From assembly GCF_900103285.1 (NCBI RefSeq), contig NZ_FNGS01000004.1, positions 601,960 through 665,959 of the forward strand: a stretch of 64,000 nucleotides of DNA, read 5' to 3'. The stretch is from Siphonobacter aquaeclarae. Lineage in GTDB: Bacteria; Bacteroidota; Bacteroidia; Cytophagales; Spirosomataceae. Shown here in pieces: positions 4,128-53,475 of this stretch (the stretch's first letter is position 1; the number at the start of each line of letters is the position of its first letter). The notes beneath the pieces are model-generated. The model did no database searches. It had not been told where the DNA came from and saw nothing but the letters and a program-made list of their open reading frames with translations. A program made the position numbers and the translations under genes.

Positions 4128-4670
4128 ATGCATATGAAAACGGTACTGCTTATGCTGGGCCTGGCACTGACGTTCCAGGCGCGGGCTCAGCTATTCCTTA
4201 CGCAAACGGGCGAGACCCGTTTCTTCTCCAAAGCTCCGCTGGAAGATATCTCCGCCATCAACAAGAAAACCGGCGCGGTACTCAATACCCAGAACGGCGA
4301 TGTCGTGGTACGTGTCCCTATCACCGAGTTTCAGTTTCCCAACAAACTGATGCAGGAGCACTTCAACGAAAACTACCTGGAATCAGACAAGTTTCCGTAT
4401 GCAATGTTCCGGGGAAAGCTTCAGGACGTGCCGGATCTGAGCAAACCGGGGTCGTATGACGTCTCGGCCAAAGGCAGTTTCGACCTTCACGGCGTAAAAC
4501 TCGACCGGGTACTGAAAGGAAAGCTGGTGGTAGATGGAGAGAAGATTACCCTGACTTCAGAGTTTCAGGTAGCCCTGGTTGATCATAAAATTGATATTCC
4601 GAAGATTGTCTTCCAGAAGATAGCGGAGACGGTGGATGTGCGGAATACGTTTGTTCTGGTGAAAAAATAA
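4128..4670 (+). CDS. YceI family periplasmic protein
   Basis: This 180-residue protein has a signal peptide (MHMKTVLLMLGLALTFQARA) and the YceI lipocalin-like barrel, for example FFSKAPLEDISAINKKTGAV, then FPNKLMQEHFNENYLESDKFPYAMFRG, and FDLHGVKLDRVLKGKL. YceI-like proteins bind isoprenoid or quinone-like lipids. A second ATG at 4134 could also serve as start. It follows the DUF5777 gene with one base between and ends inside the left arm of a perfect 35-bp inverted repeat shared with the convergent cytochrome gene. The pairing with Rieske and cytochrome genes suggests lipid or quinone handling in an envelope redox chain; this is inference. Confidence 0.9.
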   Translation: MHMKTVLLMLGLALTFQARAQLFLTQTGETRFFSKAPLEDISAINKKTGAVLNTQNGDVVVRVPITEFQFPNKLMQEHFNENYLESDKFPYAMFRGKLQDVPDLSKPGSYDVSAKGSFDLHGVKLDRVLKGKLVVDGEKITLTSEFQVALVDHKIDIPKIVFQKIAETVDVRNTFVLVKK

Positions 4671-4748
4671 TTTCTGTGTAGTCTGTGTTTTCTGTGAGAA
4701 ATAAAAAATGTTGCTCACAGAAAACACAGACTACACAGAAATTATTTT
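4664..4748. terminator. 35-bp perfect inverted repeat holding the ends of two convergent genes
   Basis: The left arm is 4664-4698 and the right arm 4714-4748; they are exact reverse complements (35 bases each) around a 15-base A-rich loop. The left arm includes the TAA of the YceI gene (4668-4670). The right arm includes the TAA of the minus-strand cytochrome gene (4742-4744). Each gene is therefore followed by the same sequence, AAAATAATTTCTGTGTAG and onward. It can fold on either transcript and should act as a bidirectional terminator, though there is no long U tract. The arm is far longer than usual intrinsic terminator stems. Confidence 0.85.
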
Positions 4749-19123: not shown

Positions 19124-20041
19124 TTGACTATCAACCGGAAAAATAGCACCCGACTTCTCTGGATCTTCGTCGTAGCGGCCGTTCTGACCGGCTGTTCCCC
19201 CCGATTGCGCGCGCCGGGCTACGGGTATTGCGAACCGCCGGTCCCGCTGAGCGACCGGTACCAGCCGGTACGGAATACGGACTCGCTGCTGGCCGCCTAC
19301 CCTGCCTTGCAGAAGCAGTTTTCCCGGCATGACCTGCTGGTGGCGAATGCCACCGGCACGCTCGCCCTCCTGGACGATCTCACCCGCACGGGCGATCCCC
19401 GGCAATTCAGGCAGGTACGCGCCGAGCTTATGTCCCGTCTGATACTCGCCGTCAACGAAATCGGCTCGGTATCGGCTGAGCTGGATTGTGAAGGAGAACG
19501 GGCGGATCAGCTCGCCTCCTACCTCGATCGGATCAACGACCGGCGGACCAAGCGCCTGACAGTCGCCTCGATCGTCGCCGGTGCGGTGACTACCCTCCTG
19601 ACCGTTGCCGTTTCCTCTGATCAGGGGCAGAAAATCATCGGGTTTTCGGGAGGGATTGCCAGCGCCGGGCTTGGCGCGCTGACACTGATTCCCGGAAGAA
19701 AAATCCGCCTCGATCACCCGCGTAACCCGCTACGCGATCTCTGGGAAATCCCCGAACGCTCCGCTATCTATTCCCCCTTTATCTGGTATATGCTGACGGA
19801 AGAGAGCTTTTCCAACGATCATACCGGGCTCGCCCGCTCCATCCGGAAACGCTGGGCGGCCTATGAATTTGACGGCACGGGGCAGGCAGGCAGTCTCTTT
19901 TTCGGAAACGGAGGCTGGTACGAAGCCGACGACCTGCATACCCGCGCCAATCTCCTCAACCAGTTACAATCGTCCATTCGCGCCCTGCACCAGGATTTGC
20001 AGAGCCTGATGCTCTCCGTAGCTTCTCTTGGGGAAAAATGA
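19124..20041 (+). CDS. Lipoprotein of unknown function
   Basis: This 305-residue protein has a lipoprotein signal (LLWIFVVAAVLTGC, Cys24) and so is probably an envelope lipoprotein. I do not recognise the family. A helical N-terminal half (about 50-145) is followed by a hydrophobic, glycine-rich hairpin (about 148-190) and an aromatic-rich C-terminal part. The start appears to be TTG at 19124, since no ATG or GTG lies in frame before the signal peptide. Its last six codons and stop (GCT TCT CTT GGG GAA AAA TGA) form the beginning of a perfect 32-bp inverted repeat that continues downstream. Confidence 0.72.
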   Translation: MTINRKNSTRLLWIFVVAAVLTGCSPRLRAPGYGYCEPPVPLSDRYQPVRNTDSLLAAYPALQKQFSRHDLLVANATGTLALLDDLTRTGDPRQFRQVRAELMSRLILAVNEIGSVSAELDCEGERADQLASYLDRINDRRTKRLTVASIVAGAVTTLLTVAVSSDQGQKIIGFSGGIASAGLGALTLIPGRKIRLDHPRNPLRDLWEIPERSAIYSPFIWYMLTEESFSNDHTGLARSIRKRWAAYEFDGTGQAGSLFFGNGGWYEADDLHTRANLLNQLQSSIRALHQDLQSLMLSVASLGEK

Positions 20042-20087
20042 ATGGGCGGCCCTGCGGGCCGCCCATTCATTTTTCCCCAAGAGAAGC
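20021..20087. terminator. 32-bp perfect inverted repeat including the last codons of the lipoprotein gene
   Basis: The left arm 20021-20052 and right arm 20056-20087 are exact reverse complements of 32 bases around a 3-base loop (TGC). The first 21 bases of the left arm are codons 300-305 and the stop of the lipoprotein gene, so the right arm is an inverted copy of the coding 3' end. It can act as a terminator for the plus-strand gene, but it is far longer than needed. Confidence 0.85.
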
Positions 20088-20180
20088 GTTTTCGGTTTAG
20101 TGTTTTCAGTTTCGCACTCATACCGTTTTGCCAATCCCCTTTCTCACTCAACTGAAAACTGTAAACACTAAACCGAAAAC
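20088..20180. terminator. gaaaactg-word hairpin at the 3' end of the S9 peptidase gene
   Basis: GTTTTCGGTTTAGTGTTT (20088-20105) pairs perfectly with 20163-20180 (18 bp). Inside the loop are more of the same words (TTTTCAGTTT, AACTGAAAACTG). It abuts the previous 32-bp palindrome and ends five bases before the minus-strand stop of the peptidase. It is a likely terminator for the peptidase transcript and belongs to the same word family as 8003-8040 and 53379-53475. Confidence 0.75.
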
Positions 20181-20184
20181 CGAA

Positions 20185-22653
20185 TCAATTTCTTCCTCCA
20201 ACGGCGCCTGTTTTCCCTGAGGTACCCGCAGTACCGGCGTTTTTCACATACTTATCCAGCCAGGAATTCATTTCGCTGAGCATGTGAAGGAGTGATTCCT
20301 TCGCGGTATAGCCGTGGCTTTCGTAAGGCAGAAATACCAGGCGGGCTGTTGCGCCCATTCCCTTCAGGGCGTTGTAGTACCGTTCCGACTGAATCGGGAA
20401 GGTGCCGGTGTTGTTATCCGCCTCGCCGTGAATCAGCAGCAGCGGTGTCTTCATTTTGTCGGCATTCATAAACGGAGACATGCGGTTGTATACCTCCGGC
20501 GCCTGCCAGTAGGTACGCTGCTCGTTCTGAAATCCAAAGGGCGTCAGGGTACGGTTATAAGCTCCGCTCCGGGCAATACCTCCCTTGAATAATTTACTAT
20601 GGGTCAATAAGTTAGCAGTCATAAATGCCCCATAGGAATGCCCGCCGACACCTACCCGGGAGGAGTCTACCACCCCGAGGCGTACGCCCTCGTCAATCGC
20701 TGCTTTTGCCGATGCGACCAGTTGCTCTACATAGGTATCGTTCGGCTCTTTGTCTCCCTCGCCAATAATGGGGATCGACGCATTATCCAGAATGGCATAG
20801 CCCATCGTCACAAAAGCAGCTGCACCCCAGTAGCTGATGGCGTTAAACTTATAGGGAGATCCTGATACCTGTCCGGCGGCGTCTTTGCTTTTAAACTCGG
20901 CCGGGTAGGCCCAGAGAAATGTCGGGAGGGGGCCATCTTCTTTTTTATAGCCGGCAGGCAGGTACAGCGTCGCGGTCAGATCTACGCCGTCGTTCCGCTT
21001 ATACCGGAGTACCTGTTTCTGAATACCCTTCAGCTGCGGATAGGGATCGGGGAAGAAACTCACCTGCACGGGTGCGACGGTCGCTTTTTTCTTTTTCGGG
21101 ACGATCAGACTCCGGAGAAAATAGTTCGGATTCTGATCAACGGCCTCGCGCCGTGTCAGCAGCTCGCCACCCGGCAGAGTCGTCACCGGCACCTCGAAAC
21201 ACGGCGCTTCGGAGCGCCAGACAGGTTTGAACTGTTTGGTATTCAGGTTGAGTATACTGACAAACGGCCGGTCCCCTTCCGGCGACGCACCAGTGGTATT
21301 CAGGTAGTATACCTCATTATTCGCGCTGATGTCGAGGACGGAACGGCCAAACGCATTCTTCCGCATTTCGGGCTGACCGGGATCAGAGTACTTGTCTTCA
21401 AACGACCGCTCGAACAGTACGGCAGGGTTCGCCGGATCGTTCGGGTTCAGGATTTTCGCCGTCAGCTTCCGGGTTTGCCACCAGCGCTCGTAAACGATGG
21501 CGGTCTTTTCATTGCCCCAGGCTATTCCGCCAAAGCGTAATGCCGTGGCATACAGGTCTTTCGCTTCGGTGGCAAAAGGCGCATCAAGCGTTTTGACCAC
21601 ATCCCGGATCGCTATTTTCCGCTTCGGATCGCCGCCGTCTTTCGGTTCTACCCAGTAAACTGTAGCCGGAACATCGGCCCGCCAGTTAAACCCGCGGGGA
21701 TAGGGAATCGTCGCATCGGAACCCCAGGGCGCATTTTCGACGAGCGGATTGTCGGTGAGCGTTTTCACCGGGCTGCCATCCTTTCCATACACTTCCACCC
21801 TTGTGGGGAAGTACGACAGGGGTACGATATAGGAAAACGGCCGGTGAATGCTTTCTACCAATACATAATTCCCGTCCGGTGAAGGAGATACATCGGTTAC
21901 CAGCATCGGCTGCCCGATAGCCTGTGCGGTACCGTCAAGGCCCAGGCGAATGACCTGCGTCGTGGCATAGTATTCAAACTGCTTTTCGTCGGAAGGATTT
22001 TTGAGGAGATCCTGGTAGGTCGGCGCCTGGCCTTTTTTCCCGAGGTTTTCCTGGATAGTCGGTCCGGCAGGTACCCGATTGATAGCGGGAGCGCCGCCGC
22101 GGGAAGCAGGAATCGTCGCCACGATCAATGCCTTTGAGTCAGATACCCAGGCCAATGGGCCCGTAATCGCGGCATTGACGGCCAGATCGGTCAGCTTTCG
22201 GGCGGTAGCCGTCGCCACATCGAGCACGTATACCTCGATTTTTGTATCGGTTGAATGGGTAAAGGCAATTTGCTTTTCATCGGGCGACCAGCTCACGTTG
22301 GCCAGGTGGGCGTTTGCCGGCAACCCCTTCACCTGAATCTCGTCCTTCCCGCGCAGTTTTCTCAGTTTCAAATTGATAAAAAAGCTTCCGCGGCTGGGAC
22401 CGTTATTGGCCGGATTGATCCGCAGACCGGCGAGCCGCAGCTCGGGCTGGGCCAGATCGGCAATCGACGGATGCTCTGATCGTTCCGTAATCAATACCCA
22501 ATCCCCTTTGGAATCGACGCTGAAACCGGGCGTAGCGGGTGTATTGACGAGGTCGGCAAGGGGTTTCGGAGGCGTGAGGTAGGTCGCATCCTGTGCATAA
22601 CCGCACTGGACGAGCCCTCCCAGCCACAACACGGCAAGGAAACGTCTGATCAT
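20185..22653 (-). CDS. S9 family prolyl oligopeptidase-like serine peptidase
   Basis: The 822-residue product starts at the ATG at 22653, giving a signal peptide (MIRRFLAVLWLGGLVQCGYA); the longer frame from 22692 adds no plausible signal. The N-terminal two thirds is a beta-propeller-like region (LANVSWSPDEKQIAFTHS, LAWVSDSKALIVAT). The C-terminal alpha/beta hydrolase domain holds the catalytic Ser in GVGGHSYGAFMTANLL, the Asp in LLIHGEADNNTG and the His in YESHGYTAKES. It resembles glutamyl endopeptidase / acylaminoacyl peptidases of family S9 found in the periplasm of Bacteroidota. It appears to be a single transcription unit. Confidence 0.93.
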   Translation of the reverse strand: MIRRFLAVLWLGGLVQCGYAQDATYLTPPKPLADLVNTPATPGFSVDSKGDWVLITERSEHPSIADLAQPELRLAGLRINPANNGPSRGSFFINLKLRKLRGKDEIQVKGLPANAHLANVSWSPDEKQIAFTHSTDTKIEVYVLDVATATARKLTDLAVNAAITGPLAWVSDSKALIVATIPASRGGAPAINRVPAGPTIQENLGKKGQAPTYQDLLKNPSDEKQFEYYATTQVIRLGLDGTAQAIGQPMLVTDVSPSPDGNYVLVESIHRPFSYIVPLSYFPTRVEVYGKDGSPVKTLTDNPLVENAPWGSDATIPYPRGFNWRADVPATVYWVEPKDGGDPKRKIAIRDVVKTLDAPFATEAKDLYATALRFGGIAWGNEKTAIVYERWWQTRKLTAKILNPNDPANPAVLFERSFEDKYSDPGQPEMRKNAFGRSVLDISANNEVYYLNTTGASPEGDRPFVSILNLNTKQFKPVWRSEAPCFEVPVTTLPGGELLTRREAVDQNPNYFLRSLIVPKKKKATVAPVQVSFFPDPYPQLKGIQKQVLRYKRNDGVDLTATLYLPAGYKKEDGPLPTFLWAYPAEFKSKDAAGQVSGSPYKFNAISYWGAAAFVTMGYAILDNASIPIIGEGDKEPNDTYVEQLVASAKAAIDEGVRLGVVDSSRVGVGGHSYGAFMTANLLTHSKLFKGGIARSGAYNRTLTPFGFQNEQRTYWQAPEVYNRMSPFMNADKMKTPLLLIHGEADNNTGTFPIQSERYYNALKGMGATARLVFLPYESHGYTAKESLLHMLSEMNSWLDKYVKNAGTAGTSGKTGAVGGRN

Positions 22654-22708
22654 TTCGAAATACAGTTTGAAGTGAAGAGGAAACAGCGGCAAACCGCTTG
22701 CTTCAATA

Positions 22709-29203: not shown

Positions 29204-29285
29204 GCAATAGGCTTTAGGCTGTAAGCTATAAGCCATGCTTACCGGCTGTTGCCTATAGCCTAACGCCTATTGCTTAAAGCCTATC
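29204..29285. repeat. gctttaagcctatagc-word hairpin upstream of kduI
   Basis: GCAATAGGCTTTAGGCT (29204-29220) pairs with AGCCTAACGCCTATTGC (29257-29273), 16 of 17 positions, with further words (GTAAGCTATAAGCC, TTGCTTAAAGCCTAT) in the loop and tail. It lies between divergent genes, the kduI start and the ABC exporter start, so it is not an obvious terminator here. It belongs to the same word family as 35374-35456 and 48324-48437. Confidence 0.7.
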
Positions 29286-32467: not shown

Positions 32468-32481
32468 TTAAAAAGCTTGGG

Positions 32482-32524
32482 GCATGGAGCAGAGGGCATG
32501 GGGCGAAAGCCCTCTGCTCCATGC
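32482..32524. terminator. gggcatggagcagaggg-word hairpin after the KDPG aldolase gene
   Basis: GCATGGAGCAGAGGGC (32482-32497) pairs perfectly with GCCCTCTGCTCCATGC (32509-32524), 16 bp with an 11-base loop. More of the word (TCCATGCCCTCTGC) continues to 32538, just short of the minus-strand aldolase stop at 32540. It is a likely terminator for that gene. The same word occurs at 6981-7041 and inside the cytochrome c gene at 5061-5083. Confidence 0.75.
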
Positions 32525-32539
32525 TCCATGCCCTCTGCA

Positions 32540-33205
32540 CTATTGCACTGACTTCGCCACCCGGACCGCTTCGGCTATCCGTTCGGCTACCGCCGTCCAT
32601 TCGTTGGCTTCGACGAGTTTTTTCGGGAAAAGCTGTGAACCCATCCCTACGCCGCGTACGCCGGCATCGAACCAGCTTTTCAGACTGGCTTCGGTAGGTT
32701 CAACGCCACCCGTCACGACAATATCGGTCCACGGCATCGGGCCCTTGATTGCCTTGACAAACTCGGGGGAGGTCGCCTGACCCGGGAAAAGCTTCACGAT
32801 TTCAGCGCCCCATTCTTCTGCCTGGGAAATCTCGGAAAGCGTAAAACAGCCCGGCATCCAACCGATTTTCCGGCGGTTGCAGGTAATCGCGACTTCCTGC
32901 TGGAGGACCGGCGCGACGACAAAGTCGGCGCCCAGCTGAATAAACAGTGTCGCAGAAGCGGCGTCCATGATGGTACCCGCACCGATCACCATATCCGGGA
33001 AATTCTTCTTCCCGAATTTCCGGAGTTCGGAGTAGGTCTCATGTGCGAAATCCCCGCGGTTGGTGAATTCGCAGATCCGGATGCCGCCTTCGTAGCAGGC
33101 GGTCAGAATTTTTTTACAGACTTCAAGGTCAGCGTGGTGGAAAATCGGCATAATCGGATTTTCCAGCAGCGTCTGGTATACCTGAAGCCGGGTGAAACTT
33201 GCCAT
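32540..33205 (-). CDS. eda: 2-dehydro-3-deoxyphosphogluconate (KDPG) aldolase
   Basis: This is a 221-residue class I aldolase with a TIM barrel. The Schiff-base lysine is in VKLFPGQATSPEFV, and the conserved acid is in RICEFTNRGDFAHE; VIGAGTIMDAASATLFIQLG and GCFTLSEI are also family blocks. It splits KDPG into pyruvate and glyceraldehyde 3-phosphate, the last step of uronate and Entner-Doudoroff catabolism. It lies 25 bases downstream of the KDG kinase gene, so the two form an operon and encode consecutive reactions. Confidence 0.94.
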   Translation of the reverse strand: MASFTRLQVYQTLLENPIMPIFHHADLEVCKKILTACYEGGIRICEFTNRGDFAHETYSELRKFGKKNFPDMVIGAGTIMDAASATLFIQLGADFVVAPVLQQEVAITCNRRKIGWMPGCFTLSEISQAEEWGAEIVKLFPGQATSPEFVKAIKGPMPWTDIVVTGGVEPTEASLKSWFDAGVRGVGMGSQLFPKKLVEANEWTAVAERIAEAVRVAKSVQ

Positions 33206-35373: not shown

Positions 35374-35456
35374 GCTGTAAGCTTTAAGCCATAGGCTTTA
35401 AGCAGCGGCCCGTATTCATGCTTTTTGCTTAAAGCCTATGGCTTAAAGCTTACAGC
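35374..35456. repeat. 31-bp perfect inverted repeat of gctttaagcctatagc words
   Basis: The left arm 35374-35404 and right arm 35426-35456 are exact reverse complements (31 bases) around a 21-base loop. The arms are made of GCTGTAAGCTTTAAGCC and ATAGGCTTTAAGCA. It lies downstream of the TIM-barrel gene and upstream of the aldo/keto reductase start, next to another perfect palindrome, and belongs to the family seen at 29204 and 48324. Confidence 0.85.
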
Positions 35457-35459
35457 TCT

Positions 35460-35531
35460 CCGTCTGATGATTGGAAAAGCAAAAAGAAGTACCGGAGGGT
35501 ACTTCTTTTTGCTTTTCCAATCATCAGACGG
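35460..35531. terminator. 34-bp perfect inverted repeat including the end of the TIM-barrel gene
   Basis: The left arm 35460-35493 and right arm 35498-35531 are exact reverse complements of 34 bases around a GGAG loop. The right arm contains the stop (35524-35526) and last codons of the minus-strand TIM-barrel gene, and the left arm is its inverted copy. It probably terminates that gene. Confidence 0.85.
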
Positions 35532-36447
35532 TAAAATTATCTGCCCATTTATACGCTTCAATGAGCTTTTTCTCGCCTTCGGCGCCGCTGCCGGAAATAC
35601 CGTGCTCCATGCCGAAGATGAAGTCTTTCTTGGTTTCCTGCATCTTTTTGTAGCAGTGCTTGAAGACGTTCTGGTAGTTGATCTCTCCGGATCCGGGTTC
35701 GCGGCGGCCAGGGTTATCTCCCTGCTGGAAGTAGCCGATTTCACTCCACACCCAATCGATGTGCGGAATGATATGGCCTTCGTTCTTCTGCATGTGGTAG
35801 ATGTCGAACAGGATCTTGCAGGAAGGGCTGTTGACCGCCCGGCAGATTTCGTACGTCTGATCGGACGTGCGGAGGAACAGATTCGGCGAATCGCTCAGCG
35901 GTTCGAGCACCATTACCAGACCCTGAGGCTCGAAAAGCTCGGCGCCGCGGCGGAGCGCGTCGATGACGTGGCCGGTCTGTACGCCGATGGGCAGGTTTCG
36001 CTCGAAATCCCCGGGTACGACCGTGATGAACTTGGCATTGCAGCGTTTGGCGACTTCAATCGCATTCTTCACGCCTTTCAGGAAAATATCGACGTGTTCC
36101 TGCTTGCCCGCAGCAAGGGTATTGGCAGAGTTGCCGCCTTTGTCGAGGACAAACACGCCCATCTGCATACCCAGTTTGGCCATGGTATCGCCGATTTTCT
36201 TCTGTTCTTCGACCGGGCGCCCCGTCATCCCGTTGTCTTCCAGCGCTACAAACCCCTGATCGTGCATGAATTTAAGCTGGTCGACCAGGTCTTTACCCCC
36301 CAGGTTCTGGAACATACCGAAGTGCGGGGCATACTTGAGTTTGAAGGTTTGTTTCGGAGCGGCGGCAGACGAGACTTCTGACAGTCCGCCTATCGTAGAG
36401 GCACCGGCGGTAGCCGCCAGGTTTTTCACAAAGGTTCGACGTTGCAT
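35524..36447 (-). CDS. Exported sugar isomerase/epimerase-like TIM-barrel protein
   Basis: This 307-residue protein has a twin-arginine-like signal (MQRRTFVKNLAATAGAS, then to about residue 29), indicating a folded exported protein. The mature part is a xylose-isomerase-like TIM barrel of the hydroxypyruvate isomerase type: LKYAPHFGMF, GLVMVLEPLSDSPNLFLR (metal-ligand Glu), CKILFDIYHMQKNEGH (Asp and His), and FGMEHGISGSG (late Glu). Such enzymes use a divalent metal. The substrate is unknown; its location next to the uronate genes suggests a keto- or uronic sugar. Confidence 0.88.
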   Translation of the reverse strand: MQRRTFVKNLAATAGASTIGGLSEVSSAAAPKQTFKLKYAPHFGMFQNLGGKDLVDQLKFMHDQGFVALEDNGMTGRPVEEQKKIGDTMAKLGMQMGVFVLDKGGNSANTLAAGKQEHVDIFLKGVKNAIEVAKRCNAKFITVVPGDFERNLPIGVQTGHVIDALRRGAELFEPQGLVMVLEPLSDSPNLFLRTSDQTYEICRAVNSPSCKILFDIYHMQKNEGHIIPHIDWVWSEIGYFQQGDNPGRREPGSGEINYQNVFKHCYKKMQETKKDFIFGMEHGISGSGAEGEKKLIEAYKWADNFTV

Positions 36448-48323: not shown

Positions 48324-48437
48324 GCTTTAAGCAGTAAGCTATAGGCTTTAGGCTTTAGGCTCAGGGCCGCGAGCCATAAGCTTACTGCCTATAGCTTACT
48401 GCCTATAGCTTACTGCTTATAGCTTACTGCTTAAAGC
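48324..48437. repeat. gctttaagcctatagc-word hairpin with 14-base tandem repeats
   Basis: GCTTTAAGCAGTAAGCTATA (48324-48343) is an exact reverse complement of 48418-48437. Between them, 48376-48432 is a tandem array of one 15-base and three 14-base units (ATAGCTTACTGCCT and ATAGCTTACTGCTT). It begins two bases after the stop of the Calx-beta lipoprotein gene. It belongs to the word family seen at 29204 and 35374. Confidence 0.85.
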
Positions 48438-53378: not shown

Positions 53379-53475
53379 GCGGTTTTCGGTTTACTGTTTT
53401 CCGTTTTCAGTTAAAGCGTCCGAAAACTGAAAACCGCAAACTGAAAACTGATTTTCCTAACCTGAAAACTGATTT
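53379..53475. repeat. gaaaactg-word repeat between ccoG and ccoH
   Basis: The spacer is made of GCGGTTTTCGGTTTACTG, then CCGTTTTCAG, and the inverse words CGAAAACTGAAAACCGC, then two copies of CTGAAAACTGATTTTCC separated by TAAC. The two halves are imperfect inverse copies. It begins directly after the ccoG stop and ends three bases before the ccoH start, so it is inside an operon. It belongs to the word family found at 8003 and 20088. Confidence 0.75.

Follow-up and report, generated by a model that had tools for sequence, protein, structure and literature searches.

A perfect terminator-like hairpin that includes the end of a lipoprotein-like gene in a Siphonobacter-like genome, and its probable extension by template switching

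The analysed window, a stretch of 64,000 nucleotides, corresponds to C12:601960-665959 of a Siphonobacter-like genome, which belongs to the same genus as the five congeners G001-G005. A lipoprotein-like gene on its plus strand (19124..20041, from the list of open reading frames) encodes 305 amino acids with an LTGC lipobox-like motif near the N-terminus and has orthologs across Bacteroidota. The gene product did not match any Pfam family; the family is widespread in Bacteroidota and shares a conserved ELDCEGERADQ motif and a C-terminal RANLLNQLQ stretch. The 3' end of this gene lies in a palindrome at 20021-20087, which on the plus strand consists of a gene-side left arm (20021..20052, 32 nt), the loop TGC (20053..20055) and a distal right arm (20056..20087, 32 nt) that is a perfect inverted copy of the left one. 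All 32 of 32 arm positions pair (100% complementarity), and the identity ends abruptly. The left arm opens with the codons GCT TCT CTT GGG GAA AAA TGA (20021..20041), which in the frame of ORF 19124-20041 read Ala-Ser-Leu-Gly-Glu-Lys and stop; 21 nt of coding sequence including the stop codon are located inside the 32-bp stem. Sequence and reading frame thus bear out the preliminary description of two exactly inverse 32-base arms, a 3-base loop and six final codons with their stop. The innermost part is a GC-only 9-bp core stem (GGGCGGCCC/GGGCCGCCC, 20044..20064), visible in sequence and fold; the core and the hairpin elements described below are given without a strand. The predicted folding energy of the RNA 20005-20120 is -73.3 kcal/mol, compared to a mean of -31.6 for shuffled sequences (z -12.1).

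Directly adjacent to the right arm, which ends at 20087, with 0 nt in between, a second hairpin of the heptamer-repeat type (H element, 20088..20180) was found. Its arms (20088-20112 and 20156-20180) are 96% complementary, enclose a 43-nt loop and contain heptamer-like units (GTTTTCG GTTTAGT GTTTTCA GTTT); many relatives of this element exist elsewhere in the genome. Only 4 nt separate it from the stop, at 20185, of a convergent gene for an S9 (prolyl oligopeptidase family) peptidase (20185..22692, minus strand, assigned by Pfam), and the spacer between the two genes is hairpin almost throughout. In all five congeners (5/5) the S9 gene has its own terminator with arms of 13-18 bp, starting +13 to +19 after the stop codon, whereas here it is followed by the H hairpin at +5 to +97 and the 32-bp palindrome at +97 to +164. 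The abutting H hairpin, the convergent S9 gene and a second palindrome of the window (35460-35531) had been missed in the preliminary description.

The 9-bp GC-only core with its 3-nt loop starts 2 nt past the stop codon and has the GC-rich stem of an intrinsic (Rho-independent) terminator. It is flanked by AAAAATGAAT on the left and ATTCATTTTT on the right, and the latter is a candidate U-tract directly 3' of the core, yet paired within the longer stem. With an A-rich stretch on the left and a T-rich stretch on the right, both inside the stem, the hairpin reads as a bidirectional intrinsic-terminator-like element with two convergent genes on its sides, and it probably terminates transcription. 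The site was not listed by a simple consensus terminator scan. The 13 outermost stem pairs (GCTTCTCTTGGGG) are coding sequence upstream of the A-tract and are presumably a by-product without a selected role. In Escherichia coli a terminator located a few bases from a stop codon is strongly repressed by the ribosome, and full terminator efficiency requires a distance of more than about 27 nt from the stop codon (PMC4824070). With the core starting 2 nt downstream of the stop codon and the full stem already upstream of it, termination of the lipoprotein gene may by analogy be weak while this gene is translated. The hairpin may serve the S9 gene better, lying 97 nt past the S9 stop.

Long perfect stems were also found at other gene ends of this genome. 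A scan of C12 (714 kb; loops of up to 12) revealed 34 perfect inverted repeats with arms of at least 16 bp, nearly all of them at gene 3' ends. In a third-order Markov copy of the 714 kb, perfect inverted repeats did not exceed 12 bp, which rules out a chance origin. A second copy of the palindrome 20021-20087 was not found in the 1.83 Mb of the genome searched; being single-copy there, it is not a dispersed repeat, a MITE, a REP-like or a mobile element. Among the 86 non-heptamer hairpins of the same 1.83 Mb, 42 lie between convergent genes, although convergent pairs make up just 208 of the 1388 gene pairs (15%). Stems with arms of at least 18 bp are perfect in 29 of 36 cases, a proportion to be read with the hairpin score in mind, which penalises mismatches and so somewhat favours perfection (for stems of 14-17 bp perfection follows almost automatically). 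On C12 the five longest perfect stems of the terminator type measure 36, 34, 32, 31 and 29 bp; counted from the end of a stop codon, they reach outwards to -4, -8, -21, -1 and +3 nt, respectively. Palindrome 20021-20087 reaches deepest into coding sequence (21 nt) among these five. Perfect stems of 20-26 bp are present in G001 and other Bacteroidota as well, indicating that the class is general and that the upper tail is what stands out here.

Perfect non-heptamer hairpins with arms of at least 24 bp were found on C12 (7/7; 0.71 Mb) and not in the further 1.1 Mb sampled, and four of the seven lie within 52 kb (C12 621980-673103). A hotspot at the replication terminus was rejected as the reason for this cluster, as the cumulative GC skew of C12 falls almost steadily and shows no turning point.

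Hairpins of heptamer or nonamer repeats occur in the window also at 4664-4748, 29204-29284, 32475-32543, 35374-35456, 48324-48437 and 53382-53469. At least four sequence families of such repeat hairpins can be distinguished (GTTTTCA-, GCTTTAA-, GCATGGG- and TCTGTGAAG-like). Their arms are often exact mirror images of imperfect repeats and often start 0-7 nt past stop codons. In two cases (window 4664-4748 and C12:144980-145049) the mirrored arms extend beyond the repeats into both convergent stop codons, with the ends AAAATAA.. / ..TTATTTT and GATAG.. / ..CTATC. Arrays of GTTTAGGGTTTAGAG, which resembles the plant telomere heptamer TTTAGGG, were seen at gene ends at C12:205155-205203 and 427580-427669 and in the G001 sample.

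About 100 orthologs of the lipoprotein gene, from the five congeners to Flavobacterium and Hymenobacter, were read. A helix (..QDLQSLxL..) is conserved, and the last residues are variable. None of the approximately 100 orthologs carries an inverted copy of its own gene end, nor does any arm reach the end of the coding sequence. In the five congeners the C-terminus is near-invariant (A/S-VNRLP before the stop) and without a matching arm; other genes follow the lipoprotein gene there, and none of the congener terminators could be matched to 20021-20087. As the inverted copy is absent from the orthologs, the long hairpin is not tied to the gene and is an innovation of this lineage. According to the preliminary description, the C-terminus should vary among orthologs and the inverted arm should match it strain by strain. 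The variation was found, the matching was not, and the congeners with a conserved end and no inverted copy contradict such a coupling. This result speaks against an obligatory coupling of C-terminus and hairpin, but leaves untouched the idea that copying occurred once in this lineage.

The direction of copying can be read at the sibling palindrome 35460..35531 (arms of 34 bp, loop of 4), which extends 8 nt into a minus-strand gene (35524-36447) and lies 3 nt from a heptamer-type H element (35374..35456). The gene is 77-80% identical in the five congeners, and its end ADNFTV-stop is the same in the two nearest ones, G001 and G004 (80% identity). In both of these an 11-bp terminator follows at +18 to +48; in G003 and G005 13-bp terminators follow related ends at +22 to +52. 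Thus, four of five congeners have only a short terminator (11-13 bp) at this site, whereas here a 34-bp arm extends from -8 to +64. Because the DNFTV end is conserved in congeners that have short terminators only, the downstream arm (..TCATCAGACGG) must, judged from this comparison, be an inverted copy for which the conserved gene end was the source. Likewise, at the sites of three more long hairpins and of a 19-bp hairpin the congeners have short or medium terminators, with arms mostly of 10-28 bp. For the other long hairpins, arms of 10-28 bp in the congeners compare to 29-36 bp here, and the outer ends are shifted toward the gene. A shorter hairpin at the same place in relatives is therefore seen for the sibling hairpins.

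Further evidence comes from the sister species G001 and G004, which share 94-95% identity in the first stretch compared and 84-92% in two more. At L304:17253, compared with G001 275690, the core is identical and the outer arms are wholly different, yet perfect in both species (26 bp in G001, 29 bp in G004). Block changes at L310:6388 are mirrored in both arms. Between L254 and L255 the distal arm is extended from ATTGATTGATAG to ATTGGACTAGTAG, and the GACTA is the reverse complement of the gene-side TAGTC. The outer arms at L274:10556 are matched in G004 and unmatched in G001, and L310:11249 shows plain one-sided decay. An automatic count of about 218 scored pairs gave 186 unchanged, 23 one-sided, 6 two-sided complementary and 3 two-sided unpaired changes; block replacements are under-counted in these figures owing to poor alignment. 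From the per-site divergence seen, we estimate that independent mutation would yield less than one two-sided complementary change, compared to the 6 observed. Fold-back template switching would predict just such a joint change of both arms. Nevertheless, compensatory steps under selection can explain part of this pattern.

An orthologous hairpin upstream of a small gene (MNLILHLL..) was found in three Siphonobacter genomes (L049:4787-4831, L050:5208-5260, L116:5175-5227). A TAAAAAA(A)TGAGTA stretch is common to the three, while the arms differ and are nearly perfect in each.

From these data we consider it likely that palindrome 20021-20087 is a terminator-like hairpin that was lengthened outwards by a template-switch (fold-back) error of replication. 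The nascent strand, having just copied the GC-rich core, would fold back on itself and prime on the gene-side arm, using this arm as template. An inverted copy of the surroundings of the stop codon and of the last six codons would thereby be written onto the downstream side, before the strand returns to its normal template. The copied stretch would include the stop and the last codons, so that the gene end is drawn into the stem and the protein stays unchanged. For quasipalindromes of E. coli, intramolecular template switching is an established process (PMC7202029), and the creation of hairpins by template switching has been proposed for RNA hairpins (Monttinen and Loytynoja 2022, PMC8794818). 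The palindrome has the form of such a product, a 32-bp exact inverted block that is absent from about 100 orthologs; this is clearer for 35460-35531. The site was compared with congeners and more distant orthologs, and event and direction are inferred rather than observed directly; the event and its polarity are presumably the same as in the sibling. The proposal of the preliminary description that the 3' end was copied inverted is hence the best explanation, with its direct polarity evidence coming from the sibling and from the rewritten arms of the sister species, not from this locus. Some of the covariation between the sister species could be ordinary compensatory substitution under selection, and arms also decay on one side (23 single versus 6 double changes); both points count against this explanation.

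A different, though unlikely, origin would be that the acquisition of an H element also lengthened the terminator arms, so that palindrome and H element form one composite insertion. Arrays with a lag of 7 are intergenic and frequent here (104 segments in 1.83 Mb; at most one each for lags 5, 6, 8, 10 and 11, and 13 for lag 9), and rare in G001 (5 in 0.4 Mb). By unit-pattern matching an H array is located within 35 nt of four of the five palindromes of at least 29 bp, compared to 6 of the 70 shorter palindromes (post hoc Fisher test, p 8e-4). By eye, a degenerate H array also borders the fifth (GCAGAGGGCATGG..), and the gaps are mostly 0-3 nt. The H elements may have arrived at terminators, or fold-back events may have given rise to both. 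Nevertheless, the association had been noticed before it was tested, and with strict lag-7/9 scoring of the flanks, which is too blunt for degenerate H elements, it was not significant (Fisher p 0.28 and 0.18). Most H elements are without a long palindrome alongside, and the concerted arm rewriting in G001 and G004 took place without H elements.

Rather improbable is an origin by selection alone, in which bidirectional termination and protection of both mRNA 3' ends favoured stepwise compensatory point mutations, with the gene-end overlap as a side effect. The strong enrichment of hairpins between convergent genes, the maintenance of terminators at the same sites in congeners and the few compensatory pair changes between the sister species are consistent with it. 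Termination does not need the 13 additional perfect pairs that coding sequence contributes upstream of the A-tract, however, and perfect stems of 29-36 bp go far beyond the 10-18 bp usual in congeners. Block-wise rewriting of outer arms, as seen between the sister species, is hard to achieve by single steps, and G-U pairs would be enough for an RNA. Template-switch copying of the gene-side arm might also have run in the opposite direction, the downstream sequence serving as template and the last codons being overwritten to give the C-terminus ASLGEK. At 20021-20087 the sequence is ambiguous in this respect: a gene end rewritten to match the hairpin, the second proposal of the preliminary description, is compatible with it because the last residues vary across the protein family. 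The conserved part of the protein stops where the arm starts (LSV-ASLGEK here, LAV-NRLP in the five congeners), so that these residues would also fit a rewritten end and speak against copying from the gene; C-terminal residues are dispensable in the family, and rewriting would be tolerable. We regard this reverse polarity as very doubtful all the same, as the one sibling whose direction can be read was copied from the gene end, and the similar tail of the Spirosoma terrae ortholog (...LSLGDK before the stop) suggests that the tail was inherited.

A highly speculative extension is that fold-back copying, coupled to incoming H elements, keeps rewriting the terminator stems of this lineage. Where it reaches coding sequence, the stop codon would be buried in a duplex, and an RNase III-like cut in the stem could then give a non-stop mRNA and post-transcriptional control. 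The arfA gene of E. coli is a comparison case. If this were true, a mutational process would create the post-transcriptional control of a gene. Chimeric amplification can produce perfect inverted repeats, but an assembly or library artefact (inverted chimera) has a negligible probability, as the site is internal to a 714-kb contig and the class is confined to gene 3' ends, is built like terminators and is found again at orthologous sites of congeners that were sequenced independently.

Intrinsic terminators show a fast turnover, and there is as yet no agreed account of how their perfect stems originate and are kept. The locus and its siblings point to template switching, with gene ends as templates, as the process that writes and repairs stems, and they offer sites for testing it strain by strain. 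Coding sequence could enter a terminator in this way without a change of the protein, with repression by the ribosome, as in E. coli (PMC4824070), as the likely side effect. The mutational mechanism is already known; its action at terminators with a coding template is new, as far as the literature searched shows. What is new is that coding sequence is recruited and that heptamer-repeat hairpins lie alongside.

Known bidirectional intrinsic terminators consist of a GC core with an A-tract and a T-tract on opposite sides and lie between convergent genes. Hairpin 20021-20087 shares the GC core, the convergent genes and, inside its stem, A- and T-rich stretches on opposite sides, but its arms are about twice as long as those in the congeners, are perfect throughout and cover the stop and six codons. 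In template switching at quasipalindromes (E. coli lacZ reporters, PMC7202029; yeast, PMC3820800) a short inverted repeat likewise primes fold-back synthesis, which makes the arms identical and can extend the identity between them. Those are reporters or hotspots, whereas here the process would act at natural terminators, lengthening the stem to about 30 bp and pulling codons into it. In the model for RNA hairpins (PMC8794818), perfect stems similarly arise in one step, and copying of the opposite arm produces compensatory changes of several bases; the cases shown there are rRNA and microRNA genes rather than gene ends or terminators of bacterial transcription. In yeast, template switching within protein-coding genes (PMC8604942) also homogenises the arms of inverted repeats and involves coding sequence. 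There the coding sequence was changed, whereas in the polarised sibling described here it is the unchanged template, and the noncoding side was rewritten.
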